From: Parcubacteria group bacterium GW2011_GWB1_44_7
GTDB taxonomy: Bacteria; Patescibacteria; Paceibacteria; UBA9973; DSPV01
DNA length: 11,809 nt
Reading direction: 5' to 3'
Assembly: GCA_000999175.1 (NCBI GenBank)
Contig: LCJJ01000013.1
Location: 1 to 11,809, forward strand
Part shown: one piece after another, positions 1 to 5,782 of the stretch
Layout of the letters: each line of letters starts with the position of its first letter
Numbering within the stretch: position 1 is the first letter of the stretch
Notes under the pieces: generated by a model
Seen by the model: only the letters and a program-made list of their open reading frames with translations
The model's database searches: none
What the model was told of the DNA's origin: nothing
Translations under genes and position numbers: made by a program

Positions 1-277
1 GATGTTCGTGATTATCGCCAGCGTCAATTCTTCTACTGGTCATTTGAAAAAATCGCCGGACATTATTTCGCGCGGTTTCGTTTATTTGCGCGAGTCGCAA
101 GCCCTGCTTCAAGAGACGCGATTGGTGGTCAAGCGAACAGTGGAAGAAGCGACTGCCGGTATGCGGCCCATCAATTTTGAATATGTGAAAAACATCTTGA
201 CCGAAAATGTCAGCCGTTTTCTCTATCAAAAAACCGCCAAGCGCCCGATTGTCATTCCGGTAGTGTTAGGGGTGTAA
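1..277 (+). CDS. rnj: Ribonuclease J, C-terminal fragment (gene enters from the left edge)
   Basis: This is the last 91 or so codons of RNase J, a metallo-beta-lactamase/beta-CASP nuclease with endo- and 5'-3' exonuclease activity in mRNA turnover and rRNA maturation. The block SPDIISRGFVYLRES is the typical end of the beta-CASP core region, and the final RPIVIPVVLGV matches the way RNase J1 proteins end (compare RRPMILPIIMEV in Bacillus). The protein therefore appears to finish normally, and only the 5' part lies outside the window. Base 1 is the last base of a preceding codon, and the ATG at 2 is internal. The last 19 bases including the stop codon recur exactly at 834-852. No terminator follows directly; the next gene starts 9 bp after the stop. 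Confidence 0.93.
   Translation, partial: MFVIIASVNSSTGHLKKSPDIISRGFVYLRESQALLQETRLVVKRTVEEATAGMRPINFEYVKNILTENVSRFLYQKTAKRPIVIPVVLGV
259..277 (+). repeat. 19-bp direct repeat, left copy (end of rnj)
   Basis: GGTAGTGTTAGGGGTGTAA encodes V-V-L-G-V-stop of RNase J. An identical copy lies at 834-852, giving a repeat period of 575 bp. The pair brackets the BECR-like gene and resembles the left end of an element integrated at the 3' end of a host gene. Confidence 0.85.
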
Positions 278-286
278 ATTAAATTT

Positions 287-703
287 ATGGCTTACAAAAA
301 TTACCACGAACTTATTAAAGAAAAAAGAACTTGGTACAAAGCCGTCGGTAAAAGTTTTTGCCCTATTTTGAAAGAAGATGTGTTTTTTATTTCCAAAGGA
401 TTCCAACACCTACTTTATGATGGTTTAGGACACGCCCGTTCAAGAAAAGAGAGAATGTATCGGGTCGGTCTTCTGCCATTAGTTATACCGGTTTTGAAAT
501 TTGCCACAAAGATAGAGGATTACAAGTTGCCGATGTTCTCAAAATCATTGAGCAAGATGGTTGAGTTTTGGACTTTGCAATCTGTGGTCGGGAAACGAAG
601 AACTTTGATTACGGTTATTTTGCGAAAAGTTGGTACCGGTAAAATCCACTTTTACAGCGTTTGGAAAAGGAAGGAAAAGAAAACAAAAAAGCCGTCAAAA
701 TGA
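287..703 (+). CDS. Small basic protein, possible BECR-fold (Barnase/EndoU/ColicinE5-D/RelE-like) nuclease
   Basis: This encodes a 138-residue basic protein with a very lysine-rich tail. I do not recognise a named family with certainty. The order of elements is a hydrophobic strand (EDVFFISKGFQHLL) with a His, an RSRKER helix, a hydrophobic segment (GLLPLVIPVLK), a strand with FWTL, and finally TLITVILRKVGTGKIHFYSVW. This resembles BECR-fold nucleases of the kind found in phage polyvalent proteins and in toxins, where the conserved His, Arg and a late Ser/Thr act in RNA cleavage; candidates here are His41, Arg51/Arg53 and Ser124. The start ATG follows a -10-like TAAATT (275-280) by 6 nt, with no Shine-Dalgarno. 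The gene lies inside a unit bounded by 19-bp direct repeats and ends within its own terminator hairpin. It may be a solitary toxin or selfish nuclease; the function is inferred. Confidence 0.7.
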   Translation: MAYKNYHELIKEKRTWYKAVGKSFCPILKEDVFFISKGFQHLLYDGLGHARSRKERMYRVGLLPLVIPVLKFATKIEDYKLPMFSKSLSKMVEFWTLQSVVGKRRTLITVILRKVGTGKIHFYSVWKRKEKKTKKPSK

Positions 704-715
704 CGGTTTCTTTGT
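688..715 (+). terminator. Intrinsic terminator overlapping the stop of the BECR-like gene
   Basis: CCGTCA (692-697), an AAA loop and TGACGG (701-706) form a perfect 6-bp stem, extended by a G-U pair and A-T pairs on both sides. TTTCTTT follows. The gene's TGA stop (701-703) is part of the stem. The A-rich 5' side and T-rich 3' side suit termination mainly on the plus strand. Confidence 0.7.
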
Positions 716-757
716 TGTGCCCACTTTCGGCTTATGGAATTCCTTAGCCGAACAAAG
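710..757 (+). other. Two-part stem-loop after the nuclease gene
   Basis: An outer stem, CTTTGT (710-715) with ACAAAG (752-757), encloses an inner stem, TCGGCT (727-732) with AGCCGA (746-751). The inner loop contains the palindrome GGAATTCC. No T-run follows, so this does not look like a second terminator. It lies inside the repeat-bounded unit and its role is unknown. Confidence 0.4.
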
Positions 758-833
758 CTTGCGCTTCATGGACACATGAGAAGTATAAGCAAATGGGTGG
801 CAAAAGTCAAATTTTTCTGGGGATAGTAATTTT

Positions 834-852
834 GGTAGTGTTAGGGGTGTAA
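834..852 (+). repeat. 19-bp direct repeat, right copy (non-coding)
   Basis: This copy is identical to 259-277. The bases just before it are also related when read in the rnj frame: they would encode I-V-I-L in place of I-V-I-P ahead of V-V-L-G-V-stop. The duplicated segment may therefore have been slightly longer (about 29 bp) with third-position changes. It has no gene of its own. Confidence 0.85.
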
Positions 853-876
853 CGGTTGAAAATTTTTAGTGTTAAG

Positions 877-1040
877 ACAAATGCTTGGTGAGATTAACGA
901 TGTAGTCAGGATTACTCCACTCAAGGTTCTTTCTCATGTTTATCTCCTTTCAAGAGATTTCCCATTACCTTTATGGATCACGCGACCGATTTGGTTCGAA
1001 AGCTGTGATGTGAGTCCGAGAAGAACTCACTAATGGCCCA
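877..1040 (+). pseudogene. Decayed 3' end of 23S rRNA (relic)
   Basis: Several blocks match, in order and with nearly correct spacing, the last part of bacterial 23S rRNA as I remember it. GATGTAGTCAGGATTAC corresponds to the GCTATGT...GGGATAA segment. CATGTTTATCTCC then TCAAGA-GATTTCCCAT corresponds to TCAAGATGAGATTTCCCAT. GGTTCGAAAGCTGTGATGTG corresponds to GGTTGATAGGC...GGTGTAAG, and CTAATGGCCC to the terminal ACTAATNGNCC. Small deletions and lost pairings are seen, and the rest of the 23S gene is absent from the upstream sequence, so this cannot be a working rRNA. A short hairpin (GTGAGT/ACTCAC, 1011-1030) survives. The alignment was made by eye and from memory. Confidence 0.62.
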
Positions 1041-1150
1041 ACAAACTTTTTGGTTTATTGATGCAAATAGGTTATCATAGGTTTATATTTCTGTCAATGT
1101 CATTTTAATTTTCTTTTGCCTACCGCCAAAACACAGCTCAGTTTAGGGGT

Positions 1151-1276
1151 TTTTAATCCCCCTTTGAAAAAGGGGGTGGCTGGAGCGAAGCGGAAGTCGG
1201 GGGATTTTCCGGAAATTAAAATCCCTCCCCCTCGCGGACTCGGGTACTCCCTTTTACAAAGGGAGATTTAAAAATT
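1151..1276. repeat. REP/MITE-like double palindrome (two inverted units)
   Basis: The first unit is TTTTTAATCCCCCTTT... with a tight hairpin CCCCCTTT/AAAGGGGG (1158-1176) and an outer pair AATCCCCC (1155-1162) with GGGGGATT (1199-1206). The second unit, read on the minus strand, begins TTTTTAAATCTCCCTTTG, has the hairpin CTCCCTTT/AAAGGGAG (1247-1265) and also ends in GGGATTTT. The two halves are thus related copies in opposite orientation. The block ends just before the promoter of the MFS gene and contains no open frame. Confidence 0.65.
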
Positions 1277-1296
1277 CGTGGGATTCATGATAAAAT
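1268..1296 (+). promoter_or_regulatory. Promoter of the MFS gene, probably leaderless
   Basis: There is an extended -10, TGA-TAAAAT (1288-1296), with a weak -35 TTAAAA (1268-1273) at 17 bp. Only 7 nt separate the -10 from the ATG at 1304, so transcription would start at or next to the start codon. No Shine-Dalgarno is present. Confidence 0.5.
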
Positions 1297-1303
1297 AATT
1301 GGC

Positions 1304-2467
1304 ATGACTGCACCAAGAATTTCACGGGCGTTGTTTGTTTTATATTTAGTCGGTTTTTTGTTTGCCTTGAATCAGGCATTGCCGGCTTATATTAATTCCA
1401 CTTTCCTTTCCGGTTTTGCGACGGAAAAAGCTGTTGGCATGATTTACGCTGTTGCTTCCGCCATCACCGTTATTTTGTTTTTCCTGTTGCCCCATTTATT
1501 GCGTCGGTTTGGAAATTACCGGTTGGCATTTTGGCTTTTTGTTTTGGATGGAATTGCCATGCTCGGTTTGGCCAACGCGCGTTCGTTTTGGCCGGCAATC
1601 GGTTTTTTTATTTGCGTTTTTGTCGCCACTTTTATGTTGGCTTTCACTATGGATATTTTTCTGGAGAGCAATTCGCGCGATAGCAAAACCGGTTCCATCC
1701 GCGGTATTTATATGACCGTTATCAACAGCGCCTGGGTGTTCTCTCCCCTGTTGGTCGGATTTATTTTATCCGATAGCGACTATTGGAAAATTTATCTCGC
1801 CGGAGCGATTTTGATTTTGCCGGCACTGTTTTTGTTGCGCGCCGGATTTAGAAAATTCAACGACCCGACCTACAAGAATATCGCCATTAGGGCGACTTTG
1901 AAGAATATCTGGCGCGAGCGCGATTTGTTCCGGATTTTTTCGGTCAGTTTCTTGCTCGGTTTTTTCTATACCTGGATGATTATTTATACGCCGATTTATC
2001 TTCATGACCATATTGGTTTTTCTTGGCAAACCATCGGCCTAATTTTTACCATTATGCTTTTGCCTTTCGTTTTGACGGAAACACCTTTGGGAAAATTGGC
2101 GGACAAGAAGTGGGGCGAAAAGGAAATTCTTTCTTGGGGCTTGGTAATTATGGCTTTATCCACGGTGGTGCTCACTTTTATCAATTCAACGAGCGTGGTG
2201 TTTTGGGCGATTCTTCTTTTTATCACTCGGGTTGGCGCCAGCGCCGTGGAAATAATGAGCGAGACCTATTTTTTCAAAAAAGTTCAAAGTAGCCAAGCCG
2301 ATATCATAAGCTTTTACCGCGCGACCCGTCCGGCCGCTTATGTTGTTGGACCGCTTGTCGCCAGTGTGTTATTTATTTTTATTGATTTCCGAATGATTTT
2401 CTTGGCGCTTGGCATTATTATGTTTAGTGGTTTGTGGTTTTCTTTGCGGTTGAAAGATACCTTATAA
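1304..2467 (+). CDS. MFS-type membrane transporter
   Basis: This encodes a 387-residue, very hydrophobic protein with about 12 predicted membrane segments, the length and pattern of a major facilitator superfamily permease. Short basic loops follow segments (LLRRFGNYR near residue 70; FRKFNDPTYKN near 185). A motif-A-like loop, GKLADKKWGEKE near residue 265, marks the start of the second six-helix half, and a long central cytoplasmic loop (about 185-210) separates the halves. The substrate cannot be told from the sequence; sugar, drug or metabolite efflux are all possible. The gene stands alone between a REP-like block with a promoter and a hairpin, convergent with tsaC. The start codon is fixed by the close -10 element. 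Confidence 0.85.
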   Translation: MTAPRISRALFVLYLVGFLFALNQALPAYINSTFLSGFATEKAVGMIYAVASAITVILFFLLPHLLRRFGNYRLAFWLFVLDGIAMLGLANARSFWPAIGFFICVFVATFMLAFTMDIFLESNSRDSKTGSIRGIYMTVINSAWVFSPLLVGFILSDSDYWKIYLAGAILILPALFLLRAGFRKFNDPTYKNIAIRATLKNIWRERDLFRIFSVSFLLGFFYTWMIIYTPIYLHDHIGFSWQTIGLIFTIMLLPFVLTETPLGKLADKKWGEKEILSWGLVIMALSTVVLTFINSTSVVFWAILLFITRVGASAVEIMSETYFFKKVQSSQADIISFYRATRPAAYVVGPLVASVLFIFIDFRMIFLALGIIMFSGLWFSLRLKDTL

Positions 2468-4879: not shown

Positions 4880-4885
4880 ATGCTT

Positions 4886-5782
4886 ATGATTAGCAAAGAA
4901 CCATACAAAGGCGTGCGGGATTTTTATCCGCCGGAGATGGCGATTCAAAATTATATTTTCTCCGTTTGGCGAAGCGTGGCGGAAAAATTTGGTTACGTTG
5001 AATACAGTGCCTCAATCCTTGAATACGCAGAACTTTACAGAAACAAAGGCAGCGATGAAATTGTCAATGAACAAATGTATGTTTTTAAGGACAAGGGTGA
5101 TCGTGAAGTGGCCCTTCGTCCGGAGATGACCCCCACTCTAGCTCGTATGGTCGCTGCGAAGCGCAGGGCGCTTAAATTTCCTTTGCGTTGGTATTCTATC
5201 CCTAATGTTTTTCGTTATGAGCGTCCGCAACGAGGCCGCCGCCGAGAGCATTGGCAGCTTAATTGCGATCTTCTAGGCATTGCTGGTGTTGAGGCGGAAG
5301 TGGAAATAATTTCGTTGGTCCATTCAATTATGAAAACGTTTGGGGCGAAGGACGAAGATTTTGAAATTAAAATAAATAGCCGAAAAATTATTGCCGCCGC
5401 GCTGGCGGATAAAAATTTTTCCGAGGAGCAAGTCCGCGAATTTACCAGAAAATTAGACCGGGGTGAATCGACCCCAGTTGATATTCACCTTGAGCCAAAC
5501 GAAGAAATTAATAAGCTGATAGCCGCGTTGGAAGAAAACGATGTTAAAAATGTTCGTTTTGACGAAACTCTGGCGCGCGGTTTTGATTATTACACCGGAA
5601 TGGTTTTTGAGGTGTTTGATACCAATCCCGAAAACAAGCGCTCACTCTTCGGTGGCGGCCGCTACGATAATTTACTTGAAATTTTTGACGCTGAACCAGT
5701 GCCCACGGTTGGCTTTGGTATGGGCGATATCACTATTCATGACTTTTTGGAGACCCACAATTTGCCGTTAAAAAATAAATGA
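4886..5782 (+). CDS. hisS: Histidyl-tRNA synthetase, catalytic core only (no anticodon-binding domain)
   Basis: This class II synthetase attaches histidine to tRNA-His. Residues are counted from the ATG at 4886, giving 298 aa; an in-frame ATG at 4880 would add two. The N-terminal motif-1 region (GVRDFYPPE), the ATP/His loops (LRPEMTP near 78), motif 2 FRYERPQRG (109-117), the histidine signature RGFDYYTG (231-238) and GGGRYD (256-261) are all intact, so it looks catalytic rather than HisZ-like. Motif 3 reads GFGMGD (276-281) and lacks the usual Glu-Arg. The protein then stops after HNLPLKNK, whereas family members of about 420 aa continue with a roughly 100-residue anticodon-binding domain. 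No other frame downstream restores it; instead the TGA overlaps the next gene's ATG. The truncation appears real unless there is an assembly fault. Confidence 0.9.
   Translation: MISKEPYKGVRDFYPPEMAIQNYIFSVWRSVAEKFGYVEYSASILEYAELYRNKGSDEIVNEQMYVFKDKGDREVALRPEMTPTLARMVAAKRRALKFPLRWYSIPNVFRYERPQRGRRREHWQLNCDLLGIAGVEAEVEIISLVHSIMKTFGAKDEDFEIKINSRKIIAAALADKNFSEEQVREFTRKLDRGESTPVDIHLEPNEEINKLIAALEENDVKNVRFDETLARGFDYYTGMVFEVFDTNPENKRSLFGGGRYDNLLEIFDAEPVPTVGFGMGDITIHDFLETHNLPLKNK

Follow-up and report, generated by a model that had tools for sequence, protein, structure and literature searches.

The first 852 nucleotides of an 11,809-nt stretch from Parcubacteria group bacterium GW2011_GWB1_44_7 (contig LCJJ01000013.1; the whole stretch is referred to as the window) hold a small cassette flanked on either side by the end of rnj, the gene encoding RNase J. 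The window opens within the 3' part of rnj (2–277, plus strand), an open reading frame (ORF) matching the C-terminal domain family RNase_J_C (E 2.5e-17). Its final five codons and stop, GGTAGTGTTAGGGGTGTAA (259–277), are repeated exactly at 834–852, with a start-to-start spacing of 575 bp, in agreement with a preliminary description of this locus. The match extends upstream without gaps to 27 identities in 31 positions (247–277 and 822–852, both on the plus strand), so the length of 19 bp originally given holds for the exact core but falls short of the repeat once mismatches are allowed. No other exact direct repeat in the window is as long as this core, and first-order Markov simulations at the window's length gave none of at least 19 bp in 300 sequences (maximum 17), which bears out the earlier view that a chance origin is unlikely. 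The left copy is in frame with rnj. The right copy encodes a leucine at a position that is proline in 29 of 30 rnj relatives, the thirtieth (L089) reading X before an unrelated end, and because leucine replaces this conserved proline the right copy is probably a displaced remnant.

The cassette body occupies positions 278–821, bounded by the two copies and with similar limits in blastn comparisons of cassette pairs, its right edge being uncertain by about 10 bp. It encodes a 138-aa nuclease-like protein (287–703, plus strand), which is related to the LPD3 family (PF18798) and predicted to adopt a BECR-like fold. Convergent with this gene is one for a structured small RNA of about 62 nt that forms a three-way junction (715–776, minus strand). 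A bidirectional terminator-like hairpin (689–709, terminator-like on the plus strand at 689–709 and on the minus strand at 706–692) is common to the two genes. The RNA is preceded on the minus strand by a -10 box, TATACT (782–787), and a -35 box, TTGACT (805–810), with a 17-bp spacer. Where the preliminary description had seen only a BECR-like gene, a terminator and a stem-loop, the gene and the terminator thus stand, whereas the stem-loop proved to be a conserved RNA gene with promoter-like sequence. The nuclease gene was the only ORF of at least 60 aa listed between the copies, and no site-specific recombinase of the cassette's own was found there.

A structured RNA paired with the nuclease-like gene

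The RNA became apparent as a conserved block downstream of the ORF when the post-ORF DNA of 14 loci was aligned, the minus strand of which folds into a three-way junction. In the window it has a predicted minimum free energy of -26.3 kcal/mol (z -4.47), and it scores 86.4 bits with R1, a covariance model built from eight sequences, a score that holds by construction since the window RNA is a member of the model. The same junction resulted when 32 sequences were aligned independently with MAFFT, with compensated double changes in 12 of 16 pairs. When 36 sequences were fitted to the model, 94.7% of the alignment cells pair, with 115 double-change cells against a shuffle mean of 33.3, a count reached by none of 500 shuffles. 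A second RNA class, from which the model R2 was built (12 sequences), shares the architecture and has compensation in 11 of 18 pairs. Known Rfam families were rejected as the identity of the cassette RNA: no match in the cassette reached the gathering threshold, the single match in the window being a tRNA elsewhere, and the 14 weak matches found in 660–1300 at E ≤ 10 were all far from the gathering score. Sigma-70 promoter scores of at least 10 out of 12 were found ahead of 34 of 48 RNAs (L002, where the contig ends, being omitted and L026 entered twice), compared to 0.9% of mononucleotide shuffles, and the -10 box ended 5–7 nt before the modelled RNA in 43 of the 48. At L026, two copies of the RNA (1894–1964 and 2129–2194) lie beside a single nuclease gene.

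Together, R1 and R2 marked an RNA at 48 of 60 ORF loci, the window included (E ≤ 0.011); 20 of these 60 first-set loci had served to train the models, and among the remainder 28 of 40 were marked. The RNA lay downstream of the ORF and faced it in 47 of the 48 marked loci, and upstream in L027. Of the 12 unmarked loci, five yielded a fold-search candidate and seven yielded none. Among later loci used in no model, 21 of 23 were marked; of the other two, L141 has an RNA visible in its sequence, and L140 carries an LPD3-family ORF without the RNA (595–1896, minus strand) whose reading frame continues through a recombinase zinc-ribbon domain (E 4.3e-8). R1 had no match in 49 control loci around rnj and clpB, nor did R2 in the 23 of these covered by its run. 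The preliminary description had taken the nuclease gene to be alone, and this idea of a nuclease-only element was discarded, the RNA gene being the usual partner.

Across 379 genomes of Patescibacteria, the phylum of G001, the ORF was found in 29, with frequencies of 5/41, 13/86 and 5/16 genomes in narrower groups. R1, searched with stricter filters than the ORF, matched 15 places in 14 genomes; ten of these genomes were also ORF-positive, 11 of the 15 places lay within 115 bp of an ORF match, and 19 ORF-positive genomes had no R1 match. Three RNAs lack an intact partner of the LPD3 type. At L133 the RNA's neighbour is a fragment of a degraded LPD3 gene (A1 profile, E 0.012), at L131 it is an orphan with no ORF of at least 80 aa between 1311 and 1878, and at L134 an R1-type RNA (1501–1565, plus strand) precedes a PBECR3 gene in the same direction (1640–2116, plus strand; E 5.2e-4), while the match at L136 (E 0.004) is probably due to chance. 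The presence of the RNA without the nuclease, but hardly of the nuclease without the RNA, would be the asymmetry expected of a toxin–antitoxin pair. In the phylum of G006, the ORF was found in two of 396 genomes, both of them the genomes that led there and both possibly misbinned.

The family assignment of the protein comes from its relatives. The Pfam LPD3 model matched 29 of 44 family members at E ≤ 0.1 (best 4.1e-6), the window's own sequence having no match, and a precomputed LPD3 tag was present on four of 43 homologues; the first four viral structure matches also carry an LPD3 annotation. The BECR pattern set out in the parts of PMC5512222 drawn upon here (Iyer et al. 2017) is an N-terminal helix followed by four or five strands, with a histidine in the helix and a serine or threonine in strand 4. 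The predicted secondary structure agrees with it, H41 lying in a helix and S124 in the last strand, both at least 90% conserved. The top rows of VIA-align were BrnT and chains of one toxin–antitoxin complex and two contact-dependent inhibition (CDI) complexes, at a weak structural score; RNase activity of the protein is putative. Against the PDB, Foldseek found no match below E 1e-3, and the one hit from a profile search over PDB sequences was at chance level (E 1.3). NCBIfam gave no match for the window protein. The type III toxins ToxN, CptN and TenpN were absent both from that result and from the seven Pfam families matched by the 44 members, and in the passages of PMC10910872 considered here the only match was LPD39. 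A phage origin was rejected, since the phage collection gave no match and 15 viral stretches fitted a pattern but none was confirmed.

Boundaries, recurrence and empty sites

The limits of the cassette were apparent from blastn comparisons of 24 cassette pairs. In 18 of these, the shared DNA began no earlier than about 35 bp ahead of the ORF match and ended no later than the RNA promoter (for example L067/L159, 1466–2068, and L057/L065, 1486–2085). Similarity reached beyond the cassette in L067/L160 and L138/L139, the neighbouring gene alone was shared in L031/L154 and L031/L040, only 62 bp elsewhere were shared in L027/L029, and nothing was shared in L028/L066. Sites lacking the cassette were found as well. 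The window has a major facilitator superfamily (MFS) transporter gene to the right of the cassette (1304–2467, plus strand; MFS_1, E 7.3e-25), an arrangement with synteny at rnj relatives: in eight of 30 rnj loci an MFS gene starts no more than 210 bp from the rnj stop (within 1.5 kb in ten), with neither nuclease nor R1 RNA. Likewise, all 18 clpB relatives were empty, R1 finding no RNA at any of them, as were 17 of 19 fba loci. The proposal of a discrete, mobile unit thus gained support, and the empty sites that the preliminary description had suggested looking for at relatives exist.

Bracketing repeats, defined by a Smith-Waterman score of at least 42 between the flanks, were present at seven of 56 scorable first-set loci compared to six of 1500 segments drawn at random, with no matching by intergenic position. 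A second set, scored over a slightly different downstream stretch and without its own null, added two of 23 loci, giving nine of 79 overall, approximately 28-fold above the random segments. Gene ends are involved in six of the nine, each time of a different gene (named by Pfam), with repeats of 31 to 111 bp. Besides the window, these are L009, where the clpB end is duplicated (68/75 identical); L060, where the last codons of recQ and about 100 bp of downstream DNA are duplicated (111 bp); L068, where the end of a RelB-type antitoxin gene (relB, 1969–2310, minus strand; E 2.4e-11) brackets the cassette; L138, where the fba end is duplicated; and L141, where an unnamed divergent gene has its 5' codons duplicated. 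Duplicated ends of other genes thus flank members of this nuclease family, a check that had been suggested. L040, L048 and L050 were rejected as gene-end duplications, their repeats being AT-rich, REP-like or distant. When the coding pairs were compared (five, with L060 excluded), 13 of the 24 differences between copies fell at third codon positions (P 0.028, counting one window codon just beyond the 31-bp match), an excess suggesting that most of the divergence arose while both copies were functional genes, each in a genome of its own.

The upstream neighbour, called at 75 of 83 loci, was on the plus strand in 42 and on the minus strand in 33. This distribution, together with the 70 of 79 scorable loci that lack a bracketing repeat, indicates that the sites include gene 3' ends without these being the rule, and a gene-3'-end-only rule was rejected on the strand counts. 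Of the earlier picture of an element at a gene's 3' end, the duplicated gene end is seen at the window, L009, L060, L068 and L138, and empty sites are seen at relatives of rnj, clpB and fba. Three cassettes, those of L031, L040 and L154, have GTPase genes that are related to one another (typA-like, by eye) as opposite-strand neighbours, possibly a favoured site.

The fba comparison showed how a cassette and a gene end can travel together. Among 21 genomes around G430, 19 have fba, which is followed by a relative of the nuclease gene in G430 and G396 and in none of the other 17. The fba genes of G430 and G396, which represent two species, are 71% identical in DNA over the gene body and 92% over the last 51 nt (47/51), and this rise toward the end, 0.21, is the largest among the 66 pairs formed by the 12 closest fba genes (next 0.09). 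The two nucleases are 93% identical, and identity across the cassette is 0.78–0.98 in 60-column windows, fading just before the right-hand repeat of G430. Similar cassettes and a conserved last 51 nt in an otherwise diverged fba demonstrate, at the level of computation, that cassette and gene end moved together; the right-hand fba copy is probably the displaced native end. In G430 (L138, on the opposite strand of the record; oriented 2119–2710), a second unit, which carries an unrelated 156-aa ORF, is followed by a third fba-end copy, so one gene end can collect units into an array.

Proposed function and probable route of insertion

Taken together, these results give barely better than even support to the reading that the 575-bp interval is a compact two-gene Patescibacteria cassette encoding an RNA-neutralised, type III-like toxin, inserted at gene ends by recombination. 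Constitutively made RNA would keep the nuclease in check, and a cell losing the cassette would be penalised, which would allow the cassette to persist and spread. At rnj, if it follows the pattern of fba, the incoming DNA may have carried the gene-end copy that now terminates the gene (the left copy), while the native end would have been displaced and would remain to the right of the cassette (the right copy). The DNA could have entered by uptake, for example, or as a circle excised between repeats. Two points weigh against this reading. Most scorable loci (70/79) have no bracketing repeat, and the gene upstream of L068 is RelB-like, so that a toxin-like cassette was there either inserted at an antitoxin gene or paired with it; the latter point lowered confidence very slightly.

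In type III toxin–antitoxin systems, a small protein of the endoribonuclease type has a structured antitoxin RNA as partner, usually in tandem repeats. The antitoxin RNA lies upstream of the toxin in one operon, and the toxin has a MazF/Kid-like fold. The cassette resembles these systems (ToxIN, CptIN, TenpIN) in joining a protein gene to a structured RNA (48/60 and 21/23 loci). It differs in the predicted BECR-like fold of its protein and in its RNA, which is a single three-way junction, downstream and convergent, with its own promoter, and for which neutralisation of the protein is proposed. The type III order, RNA upstream in the same direction, was seen only at L134 with its PBECR3 gene. 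The LPD3 matches and the His/Ser pattern are shared with the LPD3/PBECR domains of phage polyvalent proteins (PF18798, PF18812; PMC5512222), whereas in the cassette the gene is chromosomal, stands solo and is accompanied by an RNA, a partner that the portions of that paper drawn upon do not mention. In contrast to BrnT, RelE-type type II toxins and CDI BECR toxins, to which the structural score is weak, there is no protein antitoxin gene between the window repeats. Elements at the 3' ends of coding sequences or tRNA genes are exemplified by e14, inserted in icd of E. coli. As in such elements, the gene remains intact because an alternative 3' end is supplied on one side, and a diverged old end lies opposite; unlike them, the cassette is below 600 bp, lacks an integrase, hits different genes and is mostly without repeats. 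Among the literature matches listed, as far as their text was available, nothing joined Patescibacteria with type III toxin–antitoxin systems, or with noncoding RNA and toxin–antitoxin, and none described the cassette.

The preliminary description had considered that the nuclease itself drives insertion, for which no support was obtained, its predicted fold resembling RNase toxins. A site-specific integrative cassette, placed at gene-end attachment sites by an integrase from elsewhere in the cell or by the nuclease–RNA pair, would account for the short distance between the cassette and the repeat on either side and for the three fba-end copies separating two different units in G430, which look like tandem accretion at an attachment site; a tyrosine recombinase is moreover encoded in 20 of 21 genomes tested. 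This is nevertheless considered unlikely, as the repeats stem from different genes, vary from 31 to 111 bp and are missing at most loci. In addition, the repeat-bearing genomes G009, G196, G272 and G419 each have a single tyrosine recombinase, as do nine of ten family-free relatives of G009, although the genomes may be incomplete and the search was limited to tyrosine recombinases; two were found in G430, three in G169 (L048) and five in G012 (L040). A dedicated tyrosine integrase was rejected on account of these single recombinases, which favour recombination at carried gene-end homology over site-specific integration. That the repeats are local tandem or target-site duplications, or an assembly artefact, unrelated to the arrival of the cassette, appears quite improbable. 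A single short repeat of 27/31 could come from slippage or staggered repair, but the roughly 28-fold excess over random segments, the recurrence at the ends of six genes, the third-position differences, which fit orthologues rather than fresh copies, and the movement of the fba end with its cassette all argue otherwise.

A different role for the RNA, as substrate, scaffold or sensor of the nuclease (e.g. phage-sensing) in a defence or regulatory ribonucleoprotein, is rated as rather unlikely. It would be in keeping with the strong conservation of the three-way junction and with a single RNA fold accompanying two nuclease families, LPD3 and, once, PBECR3. Yet the alignments show no variable guide-like segment, PADLOC matched only one of the 44 members, and weakly (E 0.016), and the RNA of L131 exists without an ORF of at least 80 aa between 1311 and 1878. 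Returning to the RNA-neutralised toxin, a broader and more tentative proposal, judged less likely than not, is that one three-way-junction antitoxin RNA serves both LPD3 and PBECR3 BECR nucleases in a new class of RNA-neutralised toxin, carried by a recombinase-free cassette of about 550 bp that uses the end of its target gene as a homology arm and builds arrays at favoured gene ends. If the favoured reading of an RNA-neutralised toxin is right, the cassette would add a protein fold and an RNA fold to the RNA-neutralised toxins, as a directly testable pair, and would reveal a simple, recombinase-free route by which very small genes pass between species with the carried end of an adjoining gene.

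Other features of the window

Farther along the window, a hisS-like ORF (4880–5782; tRNA-synt_His, E 3e-43) is only 300 aa long and apparently short at its C-terminus, because no anticodon-binding family was listed for it at E ≤ 0.01. By eye, a palindromic stretch resembling repetitive extragenic palindromic (REP) elements precedes the MFS gene at about 1150–1275. A 21-codon ORF, MRKNLEWSNPDYIVNLTKHLS, was likewise noted by eye on the minus strand (872–937), in the interval separating the right repeat from the MFS gene; preceded by a promoter-like site (1103–1074, minus strand) and a Shine-Dalgarno-like sequence, it possibly represents a leader or small protein.
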